A DNA stretch of 64,000 nt from Carallia brachiata (Eukaryota; Streptophyta; Magnoliopsida; Malpighiales; Rhizophoraceae). Below are positions 23,838-51,071 of this stretch, one piece after another. The position numbers and the translations under genes are program-made. The stretch spans positions 1,054,001-1,118,000 of the forward strand of contig JADCRB010000089.1 in NCBI GenBank assembly GCA_021464245.1, in the 5' to 3' direction. Within the stretch, counting starts at the first letter, position 1, and every line of letters starts with the position of its first letter. Under the pieces are notes generated by a model. That model worked only from the letters and a program-made list of their open reading frames with translations, made no database searches and was not told the origin of the DNA.

Positions 23838-24069
23838 AATTTTTGGCACGCTCGGTAGGACCTCTTCACCTCCTATCTCTTGTTCCTTAAAAAAAAAAAC
23901 AAGCAAAAAGAAGCAGCGGCAAAAAGAAAAAAAAAAGAAAAGAGCCGAGAAAAAGAAGAAAGAAAAAGAAAAAAGAAAAAAAGACAAAATAGAGAAGAAG
24001 ACAAAAAAGTAAAAAAAGTAAAAAAAAAAAGATTAAAAAAAAAAATTTTACAGGTGCTCAGCACATTAA

Positions 24070-25821: not shown

Positions 25822-26225
25822 AATTTACTATGTAAAAAAAAAAGAAAAAAAAGGGGCAAAAAAAAGAAGAGAAAAATAAAAAAAGGAAATAAAAAGAAAA
25901 ACAAAAAAAATGCAAAAAAAAATGAAAAAAAAAGCAAAAAAAAAGTGTCTGAAACTTATGTGCAGGTTCAGAATCCAACCTAAAGTCTAAATTTAGATTC
26001 GGGGGCAGAACTGAGATTCCCATTTCTAGTTCAAAATCTAAGTCCAAATTCAAACTCGGACCTAAAGCCCAAATTCAAATCCAAACCCAAAAAGCCTAAC
26101 CTCAAACCCTAGCCCAAAGCCCAAATTCACCAAATCTAAACTCGGGCTCAAATTCCAAATTTAAATGCCAACCCATAGCCTAAATCCATATTCGGGGGCA
26201 AAGATTAGACTCTGAATCAAAACTC

Positions 26226-26337
26226 AAGTCAACAGCTCAACAGCTCACCAGCCAAACCGCTCAGCAGCTCACAGCTCAACAACTCAACAGCTCAACAGCT
26301 CAATAGCTCACCAAACAGCTCAGCAGTTCAGCAAAAC
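26226..26337 (+). repeat. CAGCTCAACA-type short tandem repeat, element 1
   Basis: A degenerate decamer (CAGCTCAACA / CAGCTCACCA) repeats about ten times immediately before the larger tandem array. The same tract is at 30796-30890 in element 2. Confidence 0.85.
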
Positions 26338-26984
26338 ACTCCTGCATCGCACGAGTATAAAAGGCGATCAACAGCAGCACACTCCTACTTCGCACGAGTA
26401 TAAAAGGCGATAATCAATCCACCATAGTTCAGCACTCCTGCTTCGCACGAGTATAATAGGTGATAATTAATCCACCACAGTTCAGCAATCCTGCTCCGCA
26501 CGAGTATAAAAGGCGATCATCACAGCACACTCCTACATCGCACGAGTATAAAAGGCGATCAACAGCAGCACACTCTTGCTTCGCACGAGTATAATTAGGC
26601 GATAATCAATCCACCACAGTTCAGCACTCCTGCTTCGCACGAGTATAATAGGCGATAATTAATCCACCACAGTTCAGTAATCCTGCTCCGCACGAGTATA
26701 AAAGGTGATCATCATAGCACACTTCTGCCTCGCACGAGAATAAAAGGCGAACAGCTCCACCACAAAGTACTCCTTCCTCGCACGAGTATAAAAGGCGAAC
26801 AGTTCAGCAGCATACTCCTACCTCGCACGAGTATAAAAGGTGACACCACAGTTCAGCACTCCTCCCTCGCACGAGTATAAAAGGCGATCAACTACAGCAC
26901 ACTCCTGCTCTGCACGAGTATAAAAGATGAATGATCCAGCAAACCAGACTCCTAGCCCGCACGAGTATAAACTGTGAACGGCCC
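26338..26984 (+). repeat. Tandem array of 14 TATA-like units, element 1
   Basis: Fourteen units of about 40-60 bp each contain CTCCTGCTTCGCACGAG followed by TATAAAAGGCG or a close variant (TATAATAGG, TATAAACTG). Spacers alternate between AACAGCAGCACA and AATCCACCACAGTTCAG types. The last unit (CACGAGTATAAACTGTGAA) matches the single unit found just upstream of the homeobox ORF in element 3. Confidence 0.9.
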
Positions 26985-27302
26985 AGTAGCAAAAAAAAAA
27001 AAAAAAGTTCGGAAGTCCCGATCTAAAAGTCCAAGCGAAACTACAAACCCAAAAATCCAAACCCAAACACTTGAGACCAATTCAGAAAACTCAAAGCCCA
27101 ACTCAAAAGCCTGAAAATTAAGTCCAGACTCAAAACCCAAACACTCAACCCAAATCCAAAAATCTAAATCCAAAATCCAAACACTCGACCCAAATCCAAA
27201 AATCAAAGTGTAGAAGCCAAAACACTCGACCCAAATCCAATCCAAAGCCCAAAACCCAAAAATTCCAAGTTCCAGACATAGTCCAGAACCCAAGTTCAGA
27301 AT

Positions 27303-27592: not shown

Positions 27593-28405
27593 TGTAAATA
27601 TCATTATCAAACAAAAAAATATATATTCAAAGTCGGCGTTGCCGATTTCAAAGTCGGCAACGCCGACCAAAGAAAAAAAAATTAATTAATTAAAAGATTT
27701 ATTTCTCATGTGATGTTCACATGGGAAAGGAACTTTATAAATAGACCTCTACCGCTCAGTTCAAAACAAATTCAATAAATCTGTAAATAAAAAAATTCAA
27801 AGAATTTGAGAGAAAAAGAAAATTTTGAAAATCTCTCAAGAAAATTTCTCCTTTTCTTACGTACTTTTACTCTGCAGTATACTCTCCTAACTCCTTTTTA
27901 AGAGATATTTCAAGGGTAAGTCCCAAAAAATTTGTTGTTTCCATTTCTAAAGTTATTTTTAAATTTATATTCTCCGATCGCCCTAAATCTGAATTTATGA
28001 GAATATAGATATAAAAATATCAAATTACTACAAATCCTGCTGGGATTAAACCTCATACGGCCCTCAGTAAAATTCAGACAGCTCATCCGAGAGCAAGTCC
28101 ATTCAACTCTCGGTGAAATTAAGTCAGATCAGCTCAAATCAGGATTCTACGGTTCTTAACCGTAGTCAAAACGTCCAAATCAGATACAGTTTCAGTCTAC
28201 CCAGTTCAAGAAAAAGCTGTGGAAATTATTTCTGTCAAGATCAAGCTCATGCAGCCCTTGACGGAGTCAAAAAAAAGGAACACTAATCGAAGGATCTACG
28301 GAGATCGACCCAACGTAAATTTCTTTTTATCTTACAAGTTTTGATTGTAATTTATTTTTGTATTTTCGAGTTTAATTATTTTAGGCTCGAAATTTACCCG
28401 TTTCA
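27593..28405 (+). repeat. 5' LTR of element 2
   Basis: TGTAAATATC to TTACCCGTTTCA. It has a 14-bp stem GTCGGCGTTGCCGA with its complement at 27632-27667, a second inverted repeat around 27712-27736, TTTATAAATAG near 27734 and CTACGGTTCTTAACCGTAG at 28147-28165. Confidence 0.93.
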
Positions 28406-28647
28406 AATTTTTGGCACGTAGTGGGACATTTTCACCTCCCATCTCTTGTTCCTTAAAAAAAAAAAACAAGCAAAAAGAAGTAGCGGCAAAAAGAAAAAGA
28501 AAAAAAAAAAAGAAAAGACAAAAGAAAAAAGAAAAAAAAAAAGAAAAAAAAAAGAAAAAAGAAAAAAGAGAAAAAGAAAAGAGAAAAGAAGAAAAAAGAA
28601 AAAAGTTAAAAGTAAAAAAAAAAATTTTACAGGTGCTCAGTACATTA

Positions 28648-30395
28648 ATGGCACCAAAAAGAAATACAGCTGTCGGTACCAACAAAAAGGCAACGGCTCC
28701 ATTACCTGCATCAACTACCCTACCTGGGTACGCAGGTCCAGAAACTCGGGGACGAACACAATTTATTGCCGTCCAAACCCGACAAAATATCGAAACGGAG
28801 AGTCCACAGCTTGCACAACAACAGGAACTCTCCCCTGACTCTCTTGCCGCATGGAGGAGTCGATCACCTACCCCGATCGAAGTTGGGGGCAATGCAACAA
28901 AGCCTGCTCAACAGAATCCAACTCATTATGTAGAAATCCACACAGAGAAATCAGAAGAGTTCTCTCCCCCAGTCTTTCGCGGAGCCTCATCTGTTGCCGT
29001 CATGATGACCAACACAACCAGCACAGAAGAAAGAATTTCAGAATTGGAGAACAAGATTTTGCAGTTAATCAGAGTCGTGGAGGAAAAAGATCAACAGATC
29101 GCCGCTCTCAAAGGAAAAGCTCCGATCCAAATTGATCCCGAGATCCGTGAGGAGCAACCATATCCACCCGGTTTCACTCCAGAAGCGACACCAGCGATGT
29201 CTTCAATGCTGAAAACAACCAGGTAGTTTTACACACCTGTCACTCTCAAATTCTGTACTTCGCTATCTGTTCAACAATTGCAGGAAATGATAGCCAATAC
29301 GATCCGCCTGCAACAAGCTACATCCTCCCAAGGATTACAGATGTACGTCAAACCATACACAGACGGATCGAAAATCTCAACATGCCTTTGGGCTACCAAC
29401 CGCCCAAATTTCAACAATTTGACGGAAGAGGCGATCCCAAACAGCACATCGCCCACTTCGTTGAAACCTGCAATAATGCAGGCACTTACGGTGATCTCTT
29501 GGTAAAACAGTTTGTTCGTTGCTTAGAGAGACTGCTTTCACGTGGTTCATAAACCTTGAACCAGAATCAATCGACAGTTGGGAACAGCTACAACGGGAGT
29601 TTCTCAACAGATTTTTCAGCACTCGGAGAACGGTGAGCATGATGGAGCTTACTAGTACCAAACAAAGGAAAGGAGAGCCTGTTGTCGAATACATCAACAG
29701 ATGGCGTACTCTCAATCTAGACTGCAAAGATCATCTTACAGAGACTTCTGCTGTGGAGATGTGCATCCAGGGGATGCACTGGGAGCTATTATATATCCTG
29801 CAGGGCATCAAACCTCGAACTTTTGAGGAATTAGCAACTCGCGCACATGACATGGAAATAAGCATCAAGACCTCTGGAGGCACGATTCCCATCCAACTGG
29901 GCCAACATGGGAGCAAGGAAGTGATGGTCATTGATGCTTCACCGATAAAAGTTGGAGCTAAAGCAAAAATGAGTCCTCCAGCGCTGGCAAATCAACCGAA
30001 ACGACAAGAAAAGGGAAGGACGACCTTGCGAGAATTGGAACAGAAGAAGTATCCATTCCCCGACTCCGACGTTCCAACATTCTTGATCAACCTTTAGAAG
30101 CTAAATTGATCAAACTCCCGGAATGTAAGCAACCCAATCACAAGATCGAGTCAATGATCCGAAATTCTGCAGGTATCACCGCACAATCAACCATCCAACC
30201 GAGAAGTGTTTCGTCTTAAAGGAGCTGATCTTGAAGCTCATAGACCAAAATAAAATTATTTTGGACCAGGGAGACATAGTCTCAATCAACCAAACTGCCG
30301 TCCCTTCAAATCCGTCAGAAGAAAGTCAACATGAATTTACGCTTGCATGCTGTCAACGCATCCCGACCTGGTTCGATCAAACGGTAAACTTCTAA
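28648..30395 (+). pseudogene. gag of element 2, broken by single-base deletions
   Basis: It starts at MAPKRNTAVG and stays open through the region where element 1 is broken (28948, GAGAAATCAG). It then shifts near 29194 (CAGCGATG for CAGCCGATG) and again near 29213, 29256, 29361, 29520 and 30076. The gag core and the C/H block are the same as in element 1. The two copies are broken at different positions, which allows a consensus frame to be inferred by comparison. The end is fused to post-integrase sequence as in element 1. Confidence 0.88.
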
Positions 30396-30897
30396 AATTT
30401 ACTGTGTAAAAAAAAAAAAAAAAAAAAAGGGCAAAAAAAAAGAGAAAAATAAAAAAAGGAAATAAAAAGAAAAAAAAATGCAAAAAAAAAATGAAAAAAA
30501 AAGCAAAAAAAAAAGTGTCTGAAACTTATGTGCAGGTTCAGAATCCAACCTAAAGTCTAAATTTAGAATCGGGGGCAGAACTGGGATTCCCATTTCTAGT
30601 TCAAAATCCAAGTCCAAATTCAAACTTGACCTAAAGCCAAATTCAAATCCAGACACAAAAACTAAACTCAAACCCTAGCCCAAAGCCAAATTCACCAAAT
30701 CTAAACTCGGGCTCAAATTCCAAATTTAAATGCCAACCAATAGCCTAAATCCATATTCGGGGGCAAAGATTAGACTCTGAATCAAAACCCAAGTCAACAG
30801 CTCAACAGCTCACCAGCCAAACAGCTCAACAACTCAACAGCTCAACAGCTCAATAGCTCACCAAACAGCTCAGCAGTTCAGCAAAACACTCCTGCAT

Positions 30898-31670
30898 CGC
30901 ACGAGTATAAAAGGCGATCAACAGCAGCACACTCCTGCTTCGCGAGTATAAAAGGCGATAATCAATCCACCACAGTTCAGCACTCCTGCATCGCACGAGT
31001 ATAAAAGGCGATCAACAGCAGCACACTCCTGCTTCGCACGAGTATAAAAGGCGATAATCAATCCACCACAGTTCAGCACTCCTGCATCGCACGAGTATAA
31101 AAGGTGATCAACAGCAGCACACTCCTGCTTCGCACAAGTATAAAAGGCGATAATCAATCCACCACAGTTCAGCACTCCTACTCCGCACGAGTATAAAAGG
31201 CGATCATCACAGCACACTCCTGCTTCGCACGAGTATAAAAGGCGATAATCAATCCACCACAGTTCAGCACTCCTGCATCGCACAAGTATAAAAGGCGATC
31301 AACAGCAGCACACTCCTGCTTCGTACGAGTATAATAGGCGATAATCAATCCACCACAGTTCAGCACTCCTACTCCACACGAGTATAAAAGGCGATCATCA
31401 CAGCACACTCCTGCCTCGCACGAGAATAAAAGGCAAACAGCTCCACCACAAAGCACTCCTGCCTTGCACGAGTATAAAAGGCGAACAATTCAGCAGCATA
31501 CTCCTACCTCGCACGAGTATAAAAGGCGACACCACAGTTCAGCACTCCTACCTCGCACGAGTATAAAAGGTGATCAACTACAGCACACTCCTGCTCCGCA
31601 CGAGTATAAAAGATGAACGATCCAGCAAACCAGACTCCTGGCCCGCACGAGTATAAACTGTGAACGGCCC
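30898..31670 (+). repeat. Tandem array of 17 TATA-like units, element 2
   Basis: Seventeen units of roughly 40-60 bp with core CGCACGAGTATAAAAGGCGAT-type sequence occupy about 770 bp upstream of the homeobox ORF; an eighteenth related unit is at 31990-32030. The reverse strand is accidentally open in part of the array and gives a repetitive Cys/Gly/Leu peptide, which I treat as an artefact. Confidence 0.92.
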
Positions 31671-31714
31671 AGTAGCAAAAAAAAAAAAAAGTTCGGAAGT
31701 CCCGATCTAAAAGT

Positions 31715-31985
31715 CCAAGCGAAACTCCAAACCCAAAAATCCAAGCCCAAACACTTGAGCCCAATTCATAAAACTCAAAGCCCAACTCAAAAGCCTGAAA
31801 ACTAAGTCTAGACTCAAAACCCAAACACTGAACCCAAATCCAAAAATCCAAATCCAAAACCCAAACACTCGATCCAAATCCAAAAATCCAAGTCTAGAAG
31901 CCCAAACACTCGACCCAAATCCAATCCAAAGCCCAAAACCCAAAAATTCCAAGTTCCAGACACAGTCCAGAACCCAAGTTCAGAA
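31715..31985 (+). repeat. CCCAAA/ATCCAAA-rich degenerate repeat, element 2
   Basis: A C- and A-rich low-complexity tract of CCAAATCCAAAAATCC-type units. It is also at 27010-27302 in element 1 and, reversed, at 43235-43440 in element 3, always between the gag or pol block and the homeobox gene. Confidence 0.8.
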
Positions 31986-32036
31986 TCCAATCCAACTCCT
32001 GGCCCGTATGAGTATAAACTGTGAACGGCCAAAAAA

Positions 32037-32044
32037 TATAAAAG
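32037..32044 (+). promoter_or_regulatory. Candidate TATA box for the captured homeobox gene, element 2
   Basis: AAATATAAAAG lies 88 bp upstream of the homeobox ATG. Element 3 has the same motif (43177-43184) at nearly the same distance, flanked by the same GAACGGCC and CGGAGGGTTTGAG blocks. Conservation of motif and spacing suggests an internal promoter; this is not proven. Confidence 0.5.
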
Positions 32045-32131
32045 CGACGGAGGGTTTGAGTCTGAAACTTAGCATCAGTCTTAACCGATCTTCACCACAC
32101 ACCAGACCTTTGCTCCTCTGCCACAAGAAAG

Positions 32132-32743
32132 ATGGAACCAGTTGCAGAAGCTCAAGACAAGGGAGAAGAAAGGTCACCCCGCACAAGGTGGCAACCAACC
32201 ATGGCACAACTGCAAATTTTGGAGGAAGTCGTCCACAACAATGGAGGTATTATGCCTAATGCATCTCAGATTTACCAACTTGTCTCACGATTGCGCCCAC
32301 TCGGGGCAATCGAAGGAAAAAATGTGTTTTATTGGTTCCAGAATCGGAGAAGTAGGAAGAAACCAGCACTGAGAGCTGATTTTTCCAAAGAACAGTCTGT
32401 CGTTCCGATGGTAGATCCCACCGGTACAACTTCGCCTTCAAATGAAGCAGGTCCGAGTTCTACCACTGCAATGGTCTCTTCAGGCTATAATGATCAAAGC
32501 AGTAGCCTGTGGGAGCATGCGTACTGGTCCTAGTGGTCTTATGGAGTCAGTCAAAGGTTCATCCCTCCTAGGTACTTAAGTCTACGAGGACTTTTTCTAG
32601 CAGAAAGGAGTCATCCCGGCGAAACTTTGCCCCTCTTTCCAGAATATTCCGGCAGCATCAACCAGCTGGAAAGCGACGTCAACATCATGGACCCACCAGA
32701 CGAGGTCGAGTTTGACTTGGAGCTACGCCTCGGGCCTGGCTAG
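32132..32743 (+). pseudogene. Captured WUSCHEL-type homeobox gene in element 2, one in-frame stop
   Basis: The frame runs 203 codons from the ATG to TAG at 32741-32743 and is interrupted only by TAG at 32531-32533 (codon 134), where element 3 has CGA. Residues 18-80 form a WUS-type homeodomain ending in EGKNVFYWFQNRRSRKK. Beyond the stop the same frame still encodes a WUS box TLPLFP (32624-32641) and an EAR-like DLELRLG (32714-32734), the two motifs of WUS-clade proteins. Most WUS-clade homeodomains have NHKAR where this has NRRSR, so it is divergent. It has no intron. Read-through, an error at one base, or a truncated homeodomain-only protein are all possible. Gag and LTRs around it show it is retrotransposon cargo. 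Confidence 0.9.
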
Positions 32744-32763
32744 GATGGCCGACAAGATAAGGT

Positions 32764-32830
32764 GCAACGACTTTGGCAGCACACGGTAACGACTTCCGCA
32801 ACACACGGCAACGACTTCTGCAACACACGA
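32764..32830 (+). repeat. Short tandem repeat after the homeobox gene, element 2
   Basis: About two and a half copies of a 23-27-bp unit (GGCAACGACTTCTGCAACACAC) directly follow the homeobox gene. Element 3 has the same unit at 42360-42440. Confidence 0.8.
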
Positions 32831-33496
32831 AAATGGCTAGTCTCTGCACTTGTCCAAGGAAATTCTTTGATCAAGAAGTTGGAGGCGCACGAGCTAAGAA
32901 AAGAATGAGTAGTCTTCCTCGAGGGATCTCTAAAAGCCCTCGAAACTCAGTCTCCAACGCCATCGGTGTCATGGAGTTCCAACTACTCTCCTTAGTTCAC
33001 ATCTACCACAGAGGGATGAGATGCTACAATCATCCTAATCTTTCTTTGGATGCGACGACGTACAGGGAAGTTCCAACTACTCTCCTTACGTCGGAGCAGA
33101 CTTGGGAATCATCACTACAGTCAGTCTCTCTGTGTGTCAGTCTTAAAGTTCTGTAGTTCTGGGCCTTCCTCTTGGGGAGGTTCAAGTTCTTTACCTACCG
33201 GATCATCCTCACCAGAGCTCTGGAACTTTAAGACATATAAAAAATCCTTTGAGAGCTATGGAAGTTCGAACGCACCTGGAGACAGAATGTCAATTTTTAT
33301 ATTGACTGGGGTGCTAACTTTCTTAAGATCGTATCGGATTTCTATTGCGATCCAACAACAGCAGGCATAGTCAGAGTTAGAAGACTTCAACATTCAATGA
33401 TCATCAAGACATCTCAAGTTTCAAACTGGACTTCAAGACTCGGTTCGGATCATTTCTGTAAAATTCTTCCTTACCGACCCTTGAAGTGGGGGCATT

Positions 33497-34292
33497 TGTA
33501 AACATCATTTTCAAAAAAAAAAAAATTCAAAGTCGGTGTTGCCGATTTCAAAGTCGGCAAGGCCGACCAAAGAAAAAAAAATTAATTAATTAAAAGATTC
33601 CTTTCCCATGTGATGTTCACATGGGAAATGAACTCTATAAATAGGCCCCTGCCCTCCAGTTCAAAACAGATTCAGCAAATCTGTAAACAGAAAAATTCAA
33701 AGAATTTGAGAGAAAAAGAAAATTTTGAAAATTTCTCCTTTTCTTACGTGCTTTTTCTCTGCAGTATACTCTCCTAACTCCTTTTTGAAAGATATTTCAA
33801 GGGTAAGCCAGAAAAAATTTGTTGTTTCCATTTCTAAAGTTATTTTTAGATTTATATTCTCCGATCGTCCTAAATCTGAATTTATGAGAATATAGATCTA
33901 AAAATATCAAATTACTACAAATCCGGCTGGGATTAAGCCTCATACGGTCCTCAGTAAAATCAAGACAGCTCATCCGAAAGCAAGTCCATTCGACCCTCGG
34001 TGAAATTAAGTCAGATCAGCTCAGATCAGGACTCTACGGTTTTTAACCGTAGTCAAAACGTCCAAATCAGATACAGTTTCAATCTACCCAGTTCAAGAAA
34101 AAGTTGTGAAAATTATTTCTGTCAAGATCAAGCTCGTGCAACACTTGACGGAGTAAAAAAAAATGAACACTAATCGAAAGATTTACGGAGATCGACCACA
34201 CGTAAATTTCTTTTTATCTTACAATTTTTTATTGTAATTTATTTTTGTATTTTCAAATTTAATTGTTTTAACCTCGAAATTTACCCCTTTCA
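33497..34292 (+). repeat. 3' LTR of element 2
   Basis: TGTAAACATC to TTACCCCTTTCA, preceded by the polypurine-like AGTGGGGGCATT. It is close to the 5' LTR but has a deletion in the AAAATCTCTCAAG region and several substitutions, so the insertion is not brand new. It is followed by a T-run. Confidence 0.92.
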
Positions 34293-35488
34293 CTTTTTTT
34301 TTTTTTTTCACCAAATCTGTCCATCCATTCTCGCTATTAAGCTATCGGCAACTTGACGTGATGGATTTATGGGTTTGATACTGATGAAAATATCATATTA
34401 ATGGCCCAACTTGGCGTGTGCAGACAAGAGAGGGTTAAGTTCGTGGGGCTAATAGTCTGAATTTATCACTCTTAAAACTTATGTCAATGAGCAATAATGC
34501 AGTAGATGAAATAGTGAACGAAGAGTAAGTACACGGTAGTGGAGGGTTCTGGTTTTTTATTTTTTTATACAAACAAATAAAAAGATTGCGCTTATTACAT
34601 GGTACTTAAATTGAGCAGTTACATTAAACTATAAAGAATAAATTTTATAGTATACAATAAGAATCATCAATATCTCTTAATATTATGTAAGGTTAAACGT
34701 AAATTTAATTTAAAATATTCAACTTAATAATTTATATAAAACAAAATCTTTTAACTACTGAATAATAATAAACAGTGGTATCATTTTTATATTTAAAAGC
34801 CAAATAGTAGTCAACTAAGGGGGGTATACTGAAATATAACAATTGATATGTTACGGACATAGGTTGGCCGCTAGAGAGGGTATCTAAGGTACTTGACTGC
34901 TAGCGTACGAGCTATACTATTTGGTTTTCGTGTTAAGGATTGTAATACTATGCTCAGATAAAATTTTAAGATGAGAGAAAAGTGACGAAGAGAAAGTAAA
35001 AGAAAATATCATTAAAAGAGAAAAAAATATTTTATTTTTTTTTATATTTGGAAAGGAGTGATGAGAGAAAAAAAATTATAAATTTTTTACTTGAGAAAGG
35101 GTGAAAAGTGAGTAAGAAAAAAATATATATAAGAATTTTAATTTTATTCTATAAAGAAAATAATAATATATATACAAAAAATATTTAATTTGGAAATTAT
35201 ATATGAAGTACTTATATAAATTTAGTTTAATAACTTATAATATTTGTACAATTTTTTGTTAAAAAATTTAATTTATTTTTAAAGAATAGATTTTTTTAAA
35301 AATAAAATTAAAGTTATCAATATACAGTAAAAATAATATAGCCTTTTCATAAAAATATAGAGAATCAATAAATTTCTTCTTAAATCTCTCAATTTTGAGA
35401 GGAATAGTTTTAATGGACTAGTGAGAAGAATTAACTTTTTTCTCTCTCACTTTTTTCTCCCTCAAAAATATTTTTTAAATGTAAATAT

Positions 35489-40213: not shown

Positions 40214-40218
40214 AGCCC

Positions 40219-41029
40219 TGTAAAGCGTAAATTTCGAGTCTAAAATAATTAAACTCGAAAATATAAAAATAAATTACAAATAAAAAAAATTGTAAAATAA
40301 AAGAAAATTTACGTGGGGTCGATCTCCGTAAATCCTCCGATTAGTTTTCCTTTTTTTTTACTCCGTCAAGGACTGCACGAGCTTGATCTTGACAGAAATA
40401 ATTTTCACAGCTTTTTCTTGAACTGGGTAGACTGAAACCGGATCTGATTTGGACGTTTTGACTACGGTTAAGAACCGTAGACACCTGATCCGATCCGATC
40501 TGACTTAATTTCACCGAGGGTCGAAGGGATTTGTTCTCCGATGAGCTGCCTGGATTTTGCTGAGGGCCGTATGGGGTTTAATCGCAGCCGAATTTGTAAT
40601 AATTTGATATTTTCAGATTTATATTTTCATAAATTCAGATCTAGAGCGATCGGAGAATATAAATCTAAAAATAACTTTGGAAATGGAAATAACAAATTTT
40701 TTGGGCCTTACCCTGAAATATCTCTCAAAAAGGAGTTAGGAGAGTATACTGCGAGATAAAAGCATGTAAGAAAAGGAGAAATTTTCTTGAGAGATTTTAA
40801 AATTTTCTTTTTCTCTCAAATTCTCTGAATTTTTCTGTTTACAAATTTGCTGAATATGGTTTGAACTGAGAGGCATGAGCCTATTTATAGGGCTCCTTTC
40901 CCATGTGAACATCACATGGGAAAGGAATCTTTTTTTTGAAATTTTTCTTTGGCCGGCGTTGCCAATTCAAATTGGCAACGCCGGCTATTGAATTCCTTTT
41001 TTTTTTTTCTTCTTTTTTCTTTATTTACA
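40219..41029 (-). repeat. 3' LTR of element 3
   Basis: On the minus strand it runs from TGTAAATAAAG to TTACGCTTTACA. It has the near-perfect hairpin GCCGGCGTTGCCAATT with its complement close to the outer end, TTCCCATGTGA/TCACATGGGAA, a CTATAAATAGG promoter motif near 40880 and CTACGGTTCTTAACCGTAG near 40460. Confidence 0.93.
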
Positions 41030-41907
41030 AATGCTCCCACTTCAAGTGTCGGTAAGAAGAACTTTACAGGCGTGATCCGAACCGAGTCTTGAAGTCCAGG
41101 TTGAAACTTGAGATGTTCTGACGAACATTGAATGTTAAAATCTTCTATCTCTGACTAATCTAACTGTTGTGGATTGCAATGGAAACCGATATGATCTTGA
41201 GGAAGTTAGCAGCCCAGCCAATATAAAAATTGAAGTCTTGGCTCCAAGTGCGTTCGAGCTTCCATGGCTCGCAAAGGCTGGCAAAAGTTCTTTGAAGTTC
41301 CAAAGCTCTAGTGAGGATGATCCGGTAGGTAAAGAACTTGAACCTCCCCAAGAGGAAGGCCCAGCACTTTGGAATTTCAAGACCGGCACACAGAGAGACT
41401 GACTGTAGATTCCCATGTGAACATCACATGGGAAAGAAATCTTTTTTTTGAAATTTTTCTTTGGCCGGCGTTGCCAATTCAAAATTGGCAACGCCGGCTA
41501 TTGAATTCCTTTTTTTTTTTCTTCTTTTTCTTTATTTACAAATGCCCCCACTTCAAGTGTCGGTAAGGAAGAACTTTACAGGCGTGATCCGAACCGAGTC
41601 TTGAAGTCCAGGTTGAAACTTGAGATGTTCTGACGAACATTGAATGTTGAAATCTTCTATCTCCGACTAATCTAACTGTTGTTGGATTGCAATGGAAACC
41701 GATATGATCTTGAGGAAGTTAGCAGCCCAGCTAATATAAAAATTGAAGTCTTGGCTCCAGGTGCGTTCGAGCTTCCATGGCTCGCAAAGGCTGGCAAAAG
41801 TTCTTTGAAGTTCCAAAGCTCTAGTGAGGATGATCCGGTAGGTAAAGAACTTGAACCTCCCCAAGAGGAAGGCCCAGCACTTTGGAATTTCAAGACCGGC
41901 ACGCAGA
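40898..41907 (-). repeat. 511-bp tandem duplication across the 3' LTR border of element 3
   Basis: The end of the LTR (from CCCATGTGAACATCACATGG) plus about 370 bp of adjacent internal sequence occurs twice: about 40898-41400 and 41410-41907. The inner copy leaves a 130-bp LTR fragment (41410-41540) and a second polypurine tract (AAGTGGGGGCATT) inside the element. Confidence 0.88.
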
Positions 41908-42359
41908 GAGATGAGTGTAGTGATGATTTCCAAGTCTGTTTCCACGTAAGGAGAGTAGTTGGAACTTCCTGTACGTCGCCGTATCCAAAGAAAGATGAGG
42001 ATGATTGCAGCGTCTCATCCCTCTGTGGTAGATGTGAACTAAGGAAAGTAGTTGGAACTCCATGACACCGATGGCGTTAGGGATCCCTCGAGGAAGACTA
42101 CTCCTTCTTTTCTTAGCTCGTGCGCCTCCAACTTCTTAATCAAAGAACTTCTTGGGACAAGTGCAGAGACTAGCCATTTTCTTTTGAGAAGAAGAAGAAC
42201 TGATGGGTGAATATTACAACTCGAGAATGCAAGATATATATATACATACTATAAAGATTTTTTTTTTTTTTGAAAAGTCAAAAAGAAGGTACGCAGAATC
42301 GAGTAGGGACATCCACGTCCCTTTCCTGCATAAGAGACAAAAGAGGCAGCGGCTGACGT

Positions 42360-42440
42360 GTGTCACGAAAGTCGTTACCGTGTGTTGCATAAGTCGTTGC
42401 CGTGTGCTGCAGAAGTCGTTACCGTGTGCTGCCAAAGTTG
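42360..42440 (-). repeat. Short tandem repeat downstream of the homeobox gene, element 3
   Basis: Three or more copies of a unit of about 25 bp (CAGCACACGGTAACGACTT on the minus strand) lie just past the homeobox stop codon, as in element 2. Confidence 0.8.
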
Positions 42441-42464
42441 TTGCACCTTATCTTGTCGGCCGTC

Positions 42465-43088
42465 CTAGCGGGGCCCGAGGTGCAACTCCAAGTCAAGCTC
42501 GACCTCGTTTGGTGGGCCGATGATGTTGACGTCGACGTCAACGTCGCTTTCCAGCTGGTTGATGCTGCCGGAATATTCTGGAAAGAGAGGCAAAGTTTCG
42601 CTGAAATAACTCCTTTCTACTAGAAAAATTCCTCCTAGACTTAAGTATCTAGGAGGGATGAACCCTTGGCTGACTCCGTAAGACCATCGGGACCAGCATG
42701 CATGCTCCCATGGGCTACGGCTTTGATGAACATACCGTGGAGAGACCATTGCAGTGGAAGAACTCGGACCTGCTTCATTTGAGGGCGAAGCTGTACCAGT
42801 GGGATATACTATCGGAACGACAGACTGTTCTTTGGAAGAACCAGTTCTCAGTGCTGGTTTCTTCCTGCTTCTCCGATTCTGGAACCAATAAAACACATTT
42901 TTTCCTTCGATTGCCCCGAGCGGGCGCAATTGTGAGACAATTTGGTAAATTTGAGATGCACTAGGAATAATACCTCCATTGTTGTGGAAGACTTCCTCCA
43001 AAATTTGCAGTTGTGCCATGGTCGGTTGCCACCTTGTGTGGGGTGATCTTTCTTCTCCCTTGTCTTGAGGTTCTGCAACTGGTTCCAT
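42465..43088 (-). CDS. Captured WUSCHEL-type homeobox protein, intact 207-residue ORF in element 3
   Basis: One uninterrupted ORF between integrase and the 3' LTR, in the element's sense orientation. Residues 18-80 form a WUS-type homeodomain (TRWQPTMAQLQILEE; recognition helix KNVFYWFQNRRSRKK at 63-77). A Ser/Pro-rich linker follows, then the WUS box TLPLFP (165-170), an acidic DVDVDVN run, and LDLELHL (198-204), an EAR-like repression motif, close to the end. This is the WUS-clade order, and the length suits a short WOX protein. WUS proteins bind DNA and act with TOPLESS-type co-repressors in stem-cell control; any such activity here is inference. NRRSR in place of the usual NHKAR is unusual. 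No intron is present, so capture through RNA is likely. The frame is open while pol around it is broken several times. Confidence 0.93.
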   Translation of the reverse strand: MEPVAEPQDKGEERSPHTRWQPTMAQLQILEEVFHNNGGIIPSASQIYQIVSQLRPLGAIEGKNVFYWFQNRRSRKKPALRTGSSKEQSVVPIVYPTGTASPSNEAGPSSSTAMVSPRYVHQSRSPWEHACWSRWSYGVSQGFIPPRYLSLGGIFLVERSYFSETLPLFPEYSGSINQLESDVDVDVNIIGPPNEVELDLELHLGPR

Positions 43089-43176
43089 CTTTCTTGTGGC
43101 AGAGGAGCAAAGGTCTTGGTATGTGGTGAAGATCAGTTGAGACTGATGCTGAGTTTCAGACTCAAACCCTCCGTTA

Positions 43177-43184
43177 CTTTTATA
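43177..43184 (-). promoter_or_regulatory. Candidate TATA box for the captured homeobox gene, element 3
   Basis: TATAAAAG on the minus strand, about 90 bp upstream of the homeobox ATG, in the same sequence context as in element 2. One copy of the CATGAGTATAAACTGTGAA unit lies directly upstream (43191-43228); in elements 1 and 2 that unit is amplified into arrays. Confidence 0.5.
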
Positions 43185-43686
43185 TTTTTGGGCCGTTCAC
43201 AGTTTATACTCATGCGGGCCAGGAGTCGGATTGGATTTTGAACTTGGGTTCTGGACTGTGTCTGGAACTTGGAATTTTTGGGTTTTGGGTTTTGGATTGG
43301 ATTTGGGTCGAGTGTTTGGGCTTCTAGACTTGGATGTTTTGGATTTGGGTCGAGTGTTTGGGTTTTGGACTTGGACTTTTGGATTTGGGTCAAGTGTTTG
43401 GGCTTCTAGGCTTGGGTTTGGATTTTCGCTTGGTCTTTCAGATCGGGACTTCGCAACCTTTTTTTTTTTTGATTTTTTTTTATTTTTTTCTTTTTTTTTG
43501 ATTTTTTTCTTTTTTCTATTTTGTTTATTTTTTTATTTTTTTTCTATTTTTTGATTTTTTCTTTTGATTTTTTTTTTTTTACACATATTTACACAATACT
43601 GTTTCAGAAATTACCATTGATGGGCCGATTCGGACGCCCTTCTTGGGTCTGACAGCATGTAAGCGTTGTGAGTTAGGCCTCCTGCA

Positions 43687-44665
43687 CTAAGTATGCCGTC
43701 CCTTTGGAAGTAAAGTAAATTTGTCACCAGGCCGATGCTTCATGTTGATGGGCCGTCGCACTGCAAGAACAAGGTTTCCAACTTGAAAAGATCGAGGGCG
43801 GACCCTGCGGTTGAACGTGTTGGTGAGCCGGGCTTGGTAGCACTCAAGTTGCTGTTGTGCTTCGAGCCTCCTTTCATCGAGGCTTCTAACTCATCCAGAC
43901 GTAGGCGAGCATTCTCCTCCTGTGTGAGTCCTTCCAGAACAGCCATGCGCAGGGATGGAATCTGTGTTTCCAACGGCAGTATTGCTTCGACACCGTAGAC
44001 AAGTGAGTATGGCGTCGCCTGTGTTGGAGTCCGGTAAGTTGTACGATACGCCCATAATGCCTCCGGAATTCTGTCATGCCAATCTCTTTTGGATTTAGAG
44101 ACTACCTTCCGCAACAGGTTGCATAAGGTCTTGTTGAATGCTTCGGCCAAGCCATTTGTCGGGGCATTGTACATGGATGACTTGTACTGCTTGAACTTGA
44201 ACTTCTCGCAGAGCTTGTCGATTAAGCTGTTGTAGAACTGCTTACCATTATCAGTGATGATGAATCGAGGGACTCCATAGCGATAGATCAGCTGAGTCCG
44301 GATGAAATTGGCAACATGCTCCTTCTTTACCTCTCTAAGTGGAATGGCTTCAGCCCATTTTGAGAAGTAGTCGGTTGCTGCGAGGATGTACAGGTGACCC
44401 AGGGATGACTTTGGCAAGGGCCCCACTAAGTCGAGACCCCAAGCTTCAAAGGGCCAGGATGAGACAGTTGGATGCAGTGGCTCCGGTGGTTGATGTATGT
44501 AATTCGCATGAAATTGACAAGCTTGACAAGTTTTAGCAAACTCAATTGAATCACGTACCATGGTTGGCCAGTAGTATCCCATCCTTCTGAGTTGGAAGTG
44601 CAACTTAGGCCCGATTGATGTCCGCCACAAACACCAGAATGTGCTTCAGTGAGAGCTGTTTTGCC
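43687..44665 (-). CDS. Integrase of element 3
   Basis: A zinc finger (EAHSGVCGGH with downstream CQAC) is followed by the rve core: GLDLVGPLP with the first catalytic Asp, TDYFSKWAEA, FIITDNGKQF with the second, and NAPTNGLAEAFNKTL with Glu. The C-terminus ends in a VGNLVLAVRR-type DNA-binding segment; TAG at 43687-43689. The frame is shifted near 44660, between the RNase H ORF and the finger, and again near 43850, so the ORF as read covers only 43740-44630. The protein inserts the cDNA copy into the genome. Confidence 0.9.
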
Positions 44666-46694
44666 TCTTCATTGCTAGGCACGAAGTAAAACTCCATCAA
44701 AAGACCTTCGATACAGAGCATCCTTGAGATATATGAAGCGGGGAGCTCGTCGTTGAATTTCTGTCTTATGACGACGATCTTCGGGCAGCTTCCCGTGCTG
44801 TAGTAGTCAATGATTGGTTGGCGCCAATCTTCGTCCTCCGCGAGACGTATAGATACAGCGTTGGCTGCTGTAGTTTCTTCATCATCCTTCTGCGGCACTA
44901 TCCATTTCTGGCATACGGCAACAACTGTAGCCTGGATTTCTGACTTTGCAAGAGAGGTGGCCAGGTTAGCCAATGCGTCTGCCTGAGTGTTTTCTCGTCG
45001 AGGCACATGCTCCAAGGTGATGCTTTCAAATTCATCCATTAGCTGTCGAGCACGTTGATGGTAAGGCGCAAGATCCTCTTTCTTCACGTCATACAATCCT
45101 GTAAGTTGGTTGATGACGAGCTGGGAATCTCCATGGACTTCTATAGTTGGAATCTTCATATCGACAGCCATTTGAAGACCAATGATCAAAGCCTGGTATT
45201 CAGCAACATTATTTGAACATAACTCACCGAGAATGATAGCATATGGTAGTATTTGTCGTTGAGGAGTGACAAACACTATGCCGGCACCAGCACCATCACG
45301 CCTTGCTGCACCATCAAAGAACATCGTCCATGGTGGCAGTGTCTCAATGTAAAAGACCTCTTCATCTGGAAGATCATCTGTGAACTCCCAATCTGACGGA
45401 ATAGGGTGATCTGCAAGGAAGTCTGCTAGAGCTTGTCCTTTGACTGCTTTTTGAGGCACGTAGACAATGTCGTAGCTTTGTAGGATTACTGCCCACTTGG
45501 CAAGTCGTCCTGACAAGATTGGTCTAGATAAGATATATTTGACAGGATCAGCTCTGGCAATGAGACGTACCGTGTGAGCTTGCATGTAGTGCCTCAGCTT
45601 GTCAATGGCAAAGAACAGTGCTAGACATGTCTTTTCAATGGGCGAATAACTCAGCTCCGGACCGTTTAGTGTTCTGCTCAAGTAGTACAGGGCAACTTCC
45701 TTTCCCTGCTCGTTTTCCTGTGCAAGCAAGGCTCCCAAAGATCTTTCCTGCGCTGCAATGTAGAGAATCAACGACTTTCCTTGAATTGGAGCACCTAGGA
45801 CCGGTGGATTGGAAAGGTACTTCTTTATGCTCTCAAAGGCTTTGCTGCAAGCTTCGTCCCACTCGAAGTTGACATCCTTCTTCATCAACCGATGGAAAGG
45901 TTGACATCTCCCAGCTAAATTGGAGATGAAACGACGAATGTAGGCCAGCTTTCCTTGTAGACTTCGCAGCTCGTGCAGGTTTTTAGGTTCAGGCATCTTT
46001 TGAATTGCCTCAACCTTTGACTGATCAACTTCGATTCCACGATGGCGCACCACGAACCCAAGAAACTTTCCTGATGTGACACCGAATGCGCACTTGAGAG
46101 GGTTCATTTTGAGCTGATGCCTCCGAAGTCTTTCGAACACTGTCTTGAGATCCTCGAGGTGGTCTTTGCGCTTCTTAGTCTTTACAACTAAGTCATCAAC
46201 ATAACATTCTACAATCTTGTGCAGCATGTCATCAAAAATTTTTTGCATAGCACGTTGATAAGTGGCGCCAGCATTTTTCAATCCAAACGGCATAACTTTG
46301 TAGCAGTATATACCTTTTGGGGTGCGGAATGCTGTCAACTCCTCGTCTTCTGGTGCCATTCTGATTTGGTTATAGCCTGAAGAACCATCCATGAAGGACA
46401 ATGCTTCGTGACCCGTTGTTGCATCGACTGTGATCTCCGTTATGGGCAATGGAAAGTCATCTTTCGGGCAGGCCTGTTAAGATCTCGAAAATCAACACAT
46501 ACCCTCAACTGTCCATTCTTCTTTCTTACCGGGACAATGTTGGCAATCCACGTTGGGTAGGTGACCTCTCGGATGAAGCCAGCATTGATCAGCTTGTTCA
46601 CCTCCTCCTCGATTTGTGGAATGAGTTCCGGGCGGAACCGTCGTTGTGGCTGCTTGATAGAACGAACACCCTTCTTTACTGCTAGACGATGCAC
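44605..46694 (-). CDS. Reverse transcriptase, RNase H and second RNase H of element 3
   Basis: An N-terminal piece (46440-46694; INAGFIREV, PVRKKNGQLRVCVDFRDLN) joins, after a one-base deletion near 46475 (AGGCC for AGGGCC), a 614-codon ORF from 46449. The ORF has SFMDGSSGYNQI, MPFGLKNAGATYQRAM and the YVDD active site (ORF residues 83-86). It continues with a degenerate RNase H (YILSRPILSGRLAKWAVIL) and a second RNase H with FFDGAARRDGAGAG, NNVAEYQAL, VHGDSQLVINQL and NTQADALANLA, keeping the D-E-D-D residues. This duplicated RNase H marks the Tat lineage. Confidence 0.93.
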
Positions 46695-48346
46695 CGCATT
46701 TTTGGGTCAAGTCCAGGCATTTCTTTGTAACTCCATGCGAACACGTCCCTGTATTGACTTAATACCTGAACATATTCTTGCTCTTCTTCTGCAGTAAGTA
46801 AAGCACTTACAAATGTAGGTCGAGGATCTTCCGGAGAGCCAAGATTGACCTCCTTGAGTTCATCAACAGTTGCTTGGCCACCATCTTCAAGTTCCGGGGG
46901 AGCCTCCTTCACTTCACCATCTGATGAGTCGGATCAGCCTCCTCGCTAATTGTGACATGAAATGCAGAACCTCTGACTTCACCTTCTTTGTTTGACTGGA
47001 TAAGCCTGTCTTGTTTGGTGGTGGTGGTGATGGCACGTGCATCAGCTGCTCGGCTTCGGCTCTTTAGCGTGATCCGCACAGGTGACTTCTCCTGATAGCC
47101 TAAGCCAGGTCGGGACTGTGATGTTTGAGAAGTAGCGCCATGTGTGGATGGCAGTGTACCCATTGTGCTCGGGTTTGAGAAGTCATAGCCTCCTTTGCCA
47201 AAAGCTTGTATGCATTAGGATCAAATCCTTCATGTGTTCTTCTTTCTGGAAGTGAGCCGCCTTCGACTGCCCCCGTGTGTGGTTTGACGAAGCCTTTTAA
47301 TGGTTTTGAGGACAAAACCGGCTCAATCTTTGGTATCGGCAGAGTGTAAGTCTCCTTCAGGTTGTGCAGCTCCTTTGTTTTGGGTTGGCTATGACCTTGC
47401 TCCTGTTTAAGATCAATACAATAAGAGAAAGGGGGTTGACCTTCTGAGCGTCGTGACTTCGGCACATAGCGTAGGACTGGAGTGGAGCTTGAAGATGCAA
47501 CATCCTTCGGACGAAGTTCAGCAGGCTGTGGCAGCTTTTCATTTGTTGGAGCCTGGGTTGGCATTGGCAGGTTCTTCGACAGCTTTTCCCTTTTTGTGGA
47601 TGCCCCCAGTCCAAGTAGCTTTTGATGGAATGATCTCCGGATTGTCTGTGTCGGTGTAGAAGACTGCATCCGCCAAATGTGATTCAGCATCATCGAACGG
47701 CTTTAAGTCAGCATTGACCTTTTGAACGCCACCATTGTAGTACTTGAAGCACTGATGCAGGCTTGAGAGCACAACTCCATTTCCATGAATCCACGGTCGT
47801 CCTAGCAACATCTTATATGTGGTACGTGCATCAATCACGTGAAATAGAGTGCTAGAAGTGAGATTACCGATAGTTAGCTCCAAGCGAATCATCCCAATTG
47901 CTTTCTGTCCTCCTTGATTAAAGCCATGAATCATCAAGCGGCTGTCTGATAATTCATCAATGCCGATGCCGAGCTCCTTTATGGTGGATTTTGGGATAAT
48001 ATTGACTGCTGACCATCGTCGATCAATAATCGGACCTTCTGTTCTCACATAGCCTGATACATAGCGGCCGATTGTGGGGTTTGGACCCCAGCAGGAGATC
48101 CTCATCTGAAAATGAGATAGCAGAGTAACATCCGACGTGATTTTGGTCCGTCTGTTGCTCCGCGAGTTGGAATCTTGATGGTGATTCAGCTGAGGTCTGG
48201 AGAGTATTGCTGACTTGATTTTGCCACACTTCTGTTGATTGCAAAGCTGTAAACAGCTGAGGGTTAGCGAGAAGGGTTTGGAGAGCTTCATATACCTTCT
48301 CCGTTGTCGACTTTTTGTTGTCGAGCGGCTCCTCCTTACGGTGTGT
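46682..48346 (-). CDS. Protease region and linker of element 3 pol
   Basis: From the left of the polyprotein: FSDEDLLLGSKPHNRPL, a retropepsin-like active site in which DDGS is split by a one-base deletion near 48013, then SAVNIIPKSTIKELGI and MLLGRPWIHGNG, typical of plant gypsy proteases. A poorly conserved linker leads to SQYRDVFAWSYKEMPGLDP just before reverse transcriptase. It is read in at least three frames (47539-48291, 47100-47693, 46909-47163, 46682-46912). The protease cleaves the polyprotein; as read it would not be translated through the active site. Confidence 0.82.
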
Positions 48347-50039
48347 CACTCTTCTGATGGTTTTGAAGTGATGGTGGTCTGGTTTGCCGAGGTTATGCCT
48401 TCCTGGTCCAGAATGATTTTATTCTGGCTTTGAGCTTCATGATTAGCTCCTTCAGGACGAAACACTTCTCGGTTGGATGACTTACTATCCGGTGATATTT
48501 GCAGAATCTCGGATCGCTGACTCGATCCTTTTCATTCGGCCGCTTGCACTCTGGGAGTTCGATCAGCTTCGCCTCCAAGAGTTGTTCAAGAATGTCGGGG
48601 ACGTCTGAGTCGGGGAATGGATACTGCTTCTGCTCCAACTCTCGCAATGTCACCTTCCGCCTTTCCTGTTGTTTTGGCTGAGTTATTTGGGTCGGAGGAT
48701 TTACCTTAGCTTTGGCGCCCACTTTTACTGGTGCGGCTTCAACAGTCATCACTTCTTTCCTTTTCCGGAGCTGTTGGGTTTCTTAATCTCCCTTCTGCCC
48801 CCTTGCTGGTCCAACTGGATGGGAACCGTGCCTCCGGAAGTCTGGATGCTTATCTCCATATCATGTGCGCGGGTCGCCAGTTCTTCGAAGTTCGGGGTTT
48901 GACACCCTGCAGGATGTATAACAGCTCCCAATGCATTCCCTGGATGCACATCTACGGCAGAAGTCTCCGTCAGGCGATCTTTGCAGTCCAAGCTGAGGGC
49001 ACGCCATCTGTTGATGTATTCGACAACGGGCTCTCCTTTCCTTTGTTTGGTGCTGGTAAGCTCCATCATACTTACCGTCCTTCGAGTGCTGAAAAATCTG
49101 TTGAGGAACTCTCGTTGTAGCTGTTCCCAACTGTCGATCGATTCTGGTTCAAGATTTATGAACCAGGTGAAAGCGGTCTCCCTGAGTGAACGAACGAACT
49201 GCTTCACTAAGAGATCTCTGTAAGTCCCTGCGTTGTTGCAGGTTTCAACGAAGTGGGCGATGTGCTGTTTGGGATCGCCTCGTCCGTCGAATTGTTGAAA
49301 TTTGGGCGGCTGGTAGCCAAGGGCATGTTGAGACTTTCGATCCGTCTGGTGTACGGTTTGACGTACATCTGTGATCCTTGGAAGGATGTAGCTTGTTGCA
49401 GTCGGATCGTATTGGCTATCATTTCCTGCAATTGTTGAACAGATAGCGAAGCTACAGAATTTGAGGGTGGCAGCTGTGTAGAACTACTTGGTCGCTTTTC
49501 TGCAGGGAAGACGTCAGCTGGTGTGGCTTCTGGAGTGAAACCGGGTAGATATGGTTGCTCCTCGCGGATTTCGGGATCAACTTGGATCGGGGCTTTCCTT
49601 TGAGAGCGGCGATCTGTTGATCTTTTTCCTCCACGACTCTGATCAGCTAAAATTTTGTTCTCCAATTCTGAAATCCTTTCCTCTGTGCTGGTTGTGTTGG
49701 TCATCATGACGGCAACAGATGAGGCTCCGGGAAAGACTGGGGGAGAAAACTCTTCTGATTCTTCTGTGTGAGTCGGATTTTGTTGAGCATGTCGTCGTGT
49801 TGATCGTCGGCCCCGACTTCGATCGGGGGGTGATCGACTCCTCCATGCGGCAAGAGAGTCAGGGGAGAGATCCTGTTGTGCGAGCTGTGGACTCTCCATT
49901 TCGATTTTTGGGTTTGGATGGCAAGAAATTGTGTCCGTCCCCGGATTTCTGGACCTGCGTACCCAGGTAGGGTAGTTGATGCAGGCAGTGGAGCCGTTGT
50001 CTTCTTTTTTGTGGCAGCAGTACTTCTTTTTGGTGCCAT
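48347..50039 (-). pseudogene. gag of element 3, broken by several frameshifts
   Basis: It starts at MAPKRSTAATKKK and, across three frames, carries the same blocks as elements 1 and 2: ISELENKIL, NLMP-like NSVASLSVQQLQEMIANTIR, ETAFTWFINLEPESIDSWEQ, EFLNRFFSTRRTVSMM, and the C/H-containing CKRPNEKDRVSDPRFCKYHR near the end. The residues around 49650-50000 differ most from the other two elements, including small in-frame deletions. It is followed without a clear gap by pol. Confidence 0.87.
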
Positions 50040-50282
50040 TTGATATGTTGAACACCTGTAAAAATTTTTTTTTTTTCACTTTTTTTTTACCGTTTTTTTT
50101 TACTTTTTTTACTTTTATTTTTTTTACTTTTTACTTTTTTACTTTTTACTTTTTTTTTACTTTTTTTTTCTTTTTTTTGTCTTTTTTTTTTCTCTCTCGG
50201 CTCCCCTTTTACCTCATTTTTTTTTTTCTTTAAGGAACAAGAGATGAGAGGTGAAGATGTCCCACCGAGCGTGCCAACAATT

Positions 50283-51071
50283 TGTAAAGCGTAAATTTCG
50301 AGTCTAAAATAATTAAACTCGAAAATACAAAAATAAATTACAAATAAAAAAAATTGTAAAATAAAAGAAAATTTACGTGGGGTCGATCTCCGTAAATCCT
50401 CCGATTAGTGTTCCTTTTTTTTGACTCCGTCAAGGGCTGCACGAGCTTGATCTTGACAGAAATAATTTCCACAACTTTTTCTTGAACTGGGTAGACTGAA
50501 ACCGGATCTGATTTGGACGTTTTGACTACGGTTAAGAACCGTAGAGACCTGATCTGAGCCGATCTGGCTTAATTTCACCGAGGGTCGAAGAGACTTGTTC
50601 TCGGATGAGCTGCCTGGATTTTGCTGAGGGCCGTATGAGGTTTAATCCCAGCCGGATTTGTAGTAATTTGATATTTTCAGATTTATATTCTCATAAATTC
50701 AGATCTACGGCGATCGGAGAATATAAATCTAAAAATAATTTTGGAAATGGAAACAACAAATTTTTTGGGCCTTACCCCTGAAATATCTCTCAAAAAGGAG
50801 TTAGGAGAGTATACTGCAGAGTAAAAGCATATAAGAAAAGGAGAAATTTTGTTGAGAAATTTTTAAAATTTTCTTTTTCTCTCAAATTCTCTGAATTTTT
50901 CTATTTACAAATTTGCTGAATATGGTTTAAATTGAGGGGAATGGGTCTATTTATAGAACTCCTTTCACATGTGAACATCACATGAGAAAAGAATTTTTTT
51001 TTTGAAATTTTTCTTTGGCCGGCGTTGCCAATTCTTGAATTCTTTTTTTTTTTTTTTTTTCTTTGTTTACA
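50283..51071 (-). repeat. 5' LTR of element 3
   Basis: Minus strand from TGTAAACAAAG to TTACGCTTTACA. It matches the 3' LTR closely but has lost half of the outer GCCGGCG hairpin (51017-51040). Next to it, inside the element, are GTTGGCACGCTCGGTGGGAC (primer binding region) and the leader. Confidence 0.93.

Follow-up and report, generated by a model that had tools for sequence, protein, structure and literature searches.

Captured and retained host genes are already known as a kind of cargo in Ty3/gypsy retrotransposons. A screen of 121 angiosperm genomes, in the sections of its report available to us, describes 15 extra domains in Ty3/gypsy consensus sequences, including a YgdH/LONELY GUY-type domain in Citrus, B3 in Aegilops tauschii and 2-ODD in Phalaenopsis (PMC9289625). 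In Retand elements, the region between POL and the 3' LTR contains an ORF whose product is predicted to bind DNA, and extra ORFs of this sort have been proposed to regulate transposition; in the available text, Retand extra ORFs with known domains run antisense (mostly TRP28) and no known domain occurs in the sense ORFs (PMC11963269). Retrotransposons have also moved pieces of host sequence, as in the case of Bs1 and Rider-SUN, which are presented in the accessible part of one account as fragments or single events (PMC13317346).

The locus analysed here, within a 64,000-nucleotide stretch of the Carallia brachiata genome (the window), resembles each of these and differs from each. As in the elements of the angiosperm screen, a host-like domain is kept across several subfamilies; section 12 of that report (PMC9289625) names no homeodomain, whereas the cargo here is a WUSCHEL (WUS)-type developmental regulator, preceded by a conserved promoter-like stretch of its own. 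As in Retand, the extra ORF lies between POL and the 3' LTR and its product is predicted to bind DNA, but it is in sense and has a known domain. As with Bs1 and Rider-SUN, host sequence has been moved by a retrotransposon, but here it is a conserved gene of a whole family. Text searches of open-licence PubMed Central, covering titles and the starts of abstracts, found no WUS-carrying retrotransposon. There were no mentions of homeo- or WUSCHEL in the available text of PMC11963269, PMC7264820 and PMC9289625, nor of homeo- or WOX in that of PMC13317346. As far as searched, it is new for a retrotransposon to carry a WUS-type stem-cell regulator together with a conserved promoter-like stretch belonging to it. 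The features of the carrier element, E1, are as follows.

40219..51071, minus strand: E1, the carrier of the ORF, an LTR retrotransposon of Tat-type Ty3/gypsy organization (LTR pair, TG..CA ends, flanking AGCCC)
50283..51071, minus strand: 5' LTR of E1 (LTR pair, TG..CA ends)
48749..49207, minus strand: gag fragment (Retrotrans_gag, Pfam E 3e-13)
44605..46449, minus strand: RT, RNase H and a second RNase H-like domain (Pfam RVT_1 3.6e-30, RT_RNaseH 3.3e-23, RVT_3 9.5e-25)
43740..44630, minus strand: integrase (INT; Pfam rve 7.5e-11)
43089..43235, minus strand: predicted promoter and leader of the WUS-like ORF, conserved, with a TATA box (motif count and p-distance)
42465..43088, minus strand: WUSCHEL-like homeobox ORF, 207 aa (ORF call, Pfam, PDB, alignment, AlphaFold, Foldseek)
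42846..43037, minus strand: homeodomain, codons 18-81 (Pfam and PDB alignment, AlphaFold, Foldseek)
42579..42596, minus strand: WUS box TLPLFP, codons 165-170 (alignment with cellular WUS proteins)
42477..42497, minus strand: EAR-like LDLELHL, codons 198-204, two overlapping LxLxL (alignment with cellular WUS proteins)
40219..41029, minus strand: 3' LTR of E1 (LTR pair, TG..CA ends)

The initial annotation had placed a 207-codon ORF at 42465..43088, and this was correct; the strand, which it did not give, is minus, with the ATG at 43088 and a TAG stop at 42465. Read on that strand, E1 has the order 5' LTR, gag, RT with two RNase H domains, integrase, WUS-like ORF, 3' LTR. Since gag, RT, both RNase H domains and INT lie upstream on the same strand, the ORF is in sense, and its described position between integrase and the 3' LTR was confirmed. 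The target duplications, reported as perfect, are indeed so: the 5-bp sequence AGCCC occurs at 40214-40218 and again immediately past 51071. The two LTRs have diverged by K2P 0.053. A dual RNase H is given as a feature of Tat elements (PMC9289625). The order RT, RNase H, INT with a second RNase H, along with paired LTRs and a 5-bp duplication, is consistent with a Tat-type Ty3/gypsy element, the lineage originally proposed. A direct duplication of 510 bp (40898-41408 and 41410-41920, 97%) runs across the 3' LTR edge of E1, so that the polypurine tract is present twice. A protein match 100% identical to the E1 ORF lies on another contig (G000:C161:431011-431631), and L035 and L036 (C117 and C161) form a near-identical pair; both may reflect unpurged haplotypes or segmental duplication.

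A relative of E1 lies elsewhere in the window.

27593..34293 (right edge approximate), plus strand: E2, relative of E1 (LTRs from 27593 and 33497)
32132..32740, plus strand: E2 copy of the WUS-like ORF (interrupted by a stop at codon 134; 12 nt deleted in frame; 90.8% nucleotide identity to the E1 copy)

E2 contains a gag-like ORF and, before its 3' LTR, the WUS-like ORF; its LTRs differ by K2P 0.085, and no stretch similar to the E1 pol was found in it. Beside it, at 23037-27302 on the plus strand, is a third related element piece with a 5' LTR, gag and tandem repeats, which stops just short of the place of the WUS-like ORF; about 290 bp of other sequence separate it from E2. In E2, gag and the WUS-like ORF are separated by diverged tandem repeats with spacings of about 96 and 191 bp; this neighbour, which is without the ORF, has such repeats as well (26329-26971 and 30879-31657). 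The first part of a host gene occupies 62973-63683; Pfam recognizes LRR N-terminal and LRR domains in it, and it may be a receptor-like kinase truncated where the window ends.

The homeodomain was the sole Pfam domain of the 207-residue protein (E 5.7e-12). A sequence search of the PDB with E up to 0.001 returned just the AtWUS homeodomain (6ry3, 5e-18) and STENOFOLIA (9e-17), giving strong support to the WUS-type homeodomain of the initial annotation. AlphaFold predicted three helices with high confidence (residues 24-36, 44-57 and 62-76; pLDDT 92-94 over the block of residues 21-70) and little structure elsewhere, and the top Foldseek matches of the predicted fold were the WUS homeodomain chains 6ryd and 6ry3. 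A homologue search of a 5.8 billion-protein database gave 419 proteins, its candidates being proteins of about 114-362 aa, such that copies inside longer predicted proteins would escape. Among the best 120 of the 419, all named organisms were plants, informative names were mostly WUSCHEL, and TLPLFP was present in 120/120. The top-ranked annotated relative among the matches listed shared 47% identity over 44%; there is thus no close annotated relative among proteins of comparable length.

The WUS box and EAR-like tail (ELDLELHL, 197-204) aligned with the WUS box and EAR of 39 cellular WUS proteins, in the WUS-clade order that had been claimed. In this alignment of 40 rows, every WUS box residue was invariant, as were E197, L198 and L200, so that the EAR core E-L-x-L is retained; VELDL (196-200) of the ORF was paired with LELSL of WUS. 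L200 and L202 were found in 49/49 element copies and L198 in 47. We regard the C-terminal LDLELHL as an EAR-like motif, for which repression is predicted. The ORF thus carries the WUS-clade features, namely a WUS-type homeodomain, a WUS box of the form TLxLFP and a C-terminal EAR-like motif. In a homeodomain tree of 14 rows (10 host WOX stretches, whose gene names are our own reading of the sequences, and four element copies), the ORF fell on the WUS/WOX1-5 side, apart from WOX9 and WOX13, on a branch of 1.71 that does not separate a nearest gene. Compared directly, it scored best with host WUS (WUSb and WUSa, 50-52% identity), while the highest identity, 54%, was to host WOX3.

In AtWUS, the residues R38, Q89, N90 and R94 read bases, and in the available text an S36R change is reported to raise affinity for TAAT about sixfold and to leave TGAA binding almost unchanged (PMC7203112). 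The gapless PDB alignment makes R38, Q89, N90 and R94 equivalent to ORF residues 19, 70, 71 and 75. The first three were retained in 49/49 copies, and the fourth in 47/49, with K in the other two. The position of S36 (residue 17) is R in 47/49 copies, H in E1 and a gap in one. With arginine at this position, and given the effect of S36R in AtWUS, the element protein is predicted by analogy to bind both TGAA and TAAT. Its likeness to WUSCHEL therefore extends over the base-contact residues, TLPLFP and the EAR-like C-terminal motif, all in the same order. It differs in being a retrotransposon-borne protein of 207 aa from one continuous ORF, with about 50% homeodomain identity to host WUS, mostly arginine at the S36 position, and NRRSRKKP in the recognition helix where WUS has NHKARERQ. 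Two loci (L069 and L075) represent a divergent subfamily with the recognition helix NVYFWFQNRRHRETVALRDG and an unbroken ORF in both, a natural change of the DNA-binding surface.

Copies of the ORF were sought in the genome from which the window comes (337.5 Mb, 164 contigs). A homeodomain-model search gave 1,347 first-look candidates, 150 of which were scored; many of these have a score in common and show a 229-codon open frame. At 20/20 loci chosen for the 229-codon frame, the ORF lay between INT and the 3' LTR, and nine of the 20 encode an identical protein. A search with the ORF protein gave 2,319 first-look candidates; 150/150 scored matches covered essentially the whole ORF at 84-100%, and 104 of these best 150 had no internal stop (hand count), a figure that favours intact copies because the scored matches are the best-scoring end of the list. 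A third sample was drawn from an integrase list (132 scored of 3,370 candidates), from which 20 rows spread down the list were chosen blind to the ORF, with one exception, the row known as L009, which was swapped for its neighbour. The ORF was present in sense, about 0.6-0.9 kb downstream of integrase, in 20/20 of these copies; it was unbroken in nine and broken in 11. For 15 of the 20, the stretch beyond integrase was read directly; for the other five (L046 and L082-L085), the ORF-protein search placed the ORF 0.6-0.8 kb downstream, where it was read too. All 41 copies checked for its place (E1, the 20 open-homeodomain-frame picks and the 20 integrase picks) had it in sense downstream of integrase. 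We conclude that the WUS-type homeobox gene belongs to the regular gene content of a high-copy Tat-type Ty3/gypsy family. The description of the gene as intact is accurate for the E1 ORF and fails for about half of the copies read, 32 of 68 being unbroken and 36 broken.

LTR pairs in six of eight fetched loci tested differed by K2P 0.0014 to 0.023 (some LTRs were cut at the fetched edge), which indicates that the family moved recently; one of the fetched loci, L022, has the target duplication CAGTC. The best-ranked RT matches had 73-74% identity over 91%. Eight loci (L009-L012, L017, L020, L022 and L023) retain INT matches and the WUS-like ORF; in the 10 kb fetched for each, blastn with the E1 gag (48749-49207) and with the E1 ORF at 47539-48291, itself without a Pfam match, gave no match. 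An ORF resembling the start of the E1 gag is still present in L009. In viral contigs, there were seven pattern matches, and none was confirmed.

Selection was assessed by codon likelihood models (own code) that gave separate ω values to internal and tip branches, with branch lengths fixed from the nucleotide tree up to scale; rows with too many masked codons were dropped and identical rows were merged. Among the 68 copies, 47 of which came from a list ranked by homeodomain score, dN/dS, which the initial annotation had proposed to check, was not 1 everywhere. In the homeodomain, ω was 0.41 on internal branches (p 0.006 against 1) and 0.91 at the tips. The linker (0.95 internal, 1.00 tips) and the segment from WUS box to EAR (1.04 and 1.00) were indistinguishable from neutral. 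For the whole ORF, internal ω was 0.79 (p 0.13) and tip ω 0.85, with no difference between them; a single ω was 0.83 (p 0.029). For the 20 blind copies alone, internal ω was 0.39 for the homeodomain (p 0.01) and 0.87 for the linker, and 0.69 for the whole ORF, not different from 1 (p 0.11); the homeodomain tip value in this set (5.31) is unstable and carries no reading. The homeodomain signal was therefore not made by picking copies on homeodomain score.

Internal homeodomain ω was 0.20 with 49 copies (p 0.005) and 0.38 with 61 (p 0.004), the whole-ORF values being 0.83 (p 0.33) and 0.78 (p 0.11). For the 26 intact copies in the set of 61, whole-ORF internal ω was 0.57 (p 0.014), and the same DNA out of frame gave 1.27 and 1.50. 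Controls on the fetched copies gave internal ω of 0.07 for RT and 0.32 for INT. In a shared-versus-singleton count, nonsynonymous/synonymous variants numbered 69/31 among singletons, 67/56 among variants in two or more copies (p 0.028) and 27/24 among those in four or more (p 0.07). Constraint is real but moderate, and is located in the homeodomain, between lineages. With linker and tail near neutrality, no recent selection is seen on the WUS box and EAR as such, though both are present.

A TATA-type motif lies about 96 nt before the ATG in 25 of the 26 copies with 200 nt upstream; in E1 it reads TATAAAAG (context at 43171-43190). The 147 bp preceding the ORF were compared in the 33 copies whose two flanks could both be aligned. 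The mean p-distance over this stretch was 0.033, as against 0.116 at third codon positions of the homeodomain, 0.111 at those of the linker and 0.068 in the 3' flank (257 non-independent pairs, each diverging by more than 4%). The 147 bp before the ATG thus diverge about one-third as fast as third codon positions and are the most conserved stretch measured around the ORF. This suggests that they form a private promoter and leader, a prediction from motif and conservation. The initial proposal that the element could express the ORF under its own promoter stands in so far as this predicted promoter directly precedes the ORF; the promoter in question would not be that of the LTR only.

In the host WUS genes L065 and L066, the homeodomain and WUS box lie about 1 kb from each other, each in its own open stretch; further exon-like sequence and stops intervene. 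The element ORF runs in one continuous frame through homeodomain, WUS box and tail, and the donor introns are absent. Capture of a spliced WUS mRNA is therefore likely and is the simplest reading. DNA similarity of the element ORF to host WUS is limited to the homeobox region, at about 62%, and comparison of the ORF flanks with those of host WUS gave nothing convincing. The host WUS proteins themselves, among the matches listed, were 64-66% identical to those of Erythroxylum novogranatense and 63% to that of Ricinus, matches that point to the order Malpighiales.

These results lead us to favour, at a little better than an even chance, the reading that this is a standing WUS-type gene, captured from spliced mRNA and expressed from its own promoter as a repressor that helps the element to persist via stem-cell lineages. 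The Tat-type family would likely make a WUS-like DNA-binding repressor from its own conserved predicted promoter. WUS recruits TOPLESS-type co-repressors. For the element factor, we predict binding to TGAA and TAAT sites and recruitment of such co-repressors via the WUS box and EAR; it would favour persistence of the element, most likely through activity in the stem-cell lineages that pass new insertions on to offspring. Of these steps, mRNA capture, expression, DNA binding, co-repressor recruitment and benefit to the element are what we infer, and an effect on stem cells is suggested by analogy with WUS. The stronger version, in which the factor made from the private promoter holds cells in, or returns them to, a stem-cell or embryogenic state so that new copies reach the next generation, we consider improbable.

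The near-neutral evolution of linker and tail and the breakage of the ORF in 36 of the 68 copies read leave room for a simpler history, in which a WUS mRNA was captured once in the family ancestor and has multiplied with the element ever since, having little function or none. Captured gene pieces are, moreover, described as common in plant LTR elements in the text available (PMC13317346). This history does not account readily for a homeodomain constrained between lineages, the blind set included, or for the conserved upstream TATA stretch, or for the order of homeodomain, WUS box and EAR having been kept though the homeodomain is just about 50% identical to host WUS. We hold it to be a doubtful but serious possibility.

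The nearest rival to the favoured stem-cell-lineage reading keeps the gene functional and moves its target: the protein, in the manner of retroviral accessory factors, would control how copies of its own element are transcribed and would not act on host stem cells. Nearly all recently active Retand clusters have an extra ORF with a predicted DNA-binding domain, for which a regulatory role is proposed in the available text (PMC11963269), and the homeodomain is the part of the present protein that is under constraint. Against this, TGAA, TAAT, TTAATSS and G-box motifs showed no general excess in the four LTRs tested, the exception being L015, in which spaced TGAA pairs numbered three against 0.66 expected. 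This weakens the idea of self-regulation, which we judge unlikely.

The homeodomain might instead steer integration or mask the element, WUS biology being irrelevant. According to the sections available, the integration landscape can be influenced by extra domains (PMC9289625), and the homeodomain alone is under visible constraint; the WUS box and EAR-like tail, unneeded for targeting, are nonetheless present, and such a role seems very unlikely. An independent nested insertion or a lone host gene at the E1 spot, for which nothing was found in favour, has a negligible probability and is ruled out by recurrence of the ORF in E2 and downstream of integrase in 20/20 homeodomain-picked and 20/20 blind integrase copies, so that the separate insertion to be checked for according to the initial annotation did not materialize.

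If the stronger version, that of a working stem-cell regulator owned by the element, is true, a transposon would here be manipulating plant development to its own selfish ends. Because no germ line is set apart early in plants, a transposon gains from activity in shoot stem cells. LOG and WUS are both part of shoot-meristem control; given the LONELY GUY-type cargo in Citrus, meristem genes may be recurrent cargo, and if the stronger version is true, the two cases together would point to repeated uptake of meristem regulators by Ty3/gypsy elements. The family also offers a natural collection of WUS homeodomain variants, among them the arginine substitution that structural work has shown to change site preference. 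A many-copy family carrying a WUS relative, with its DNA-binding part under selection, makes manipulation of plant cell fate by mobile elements directly testable.
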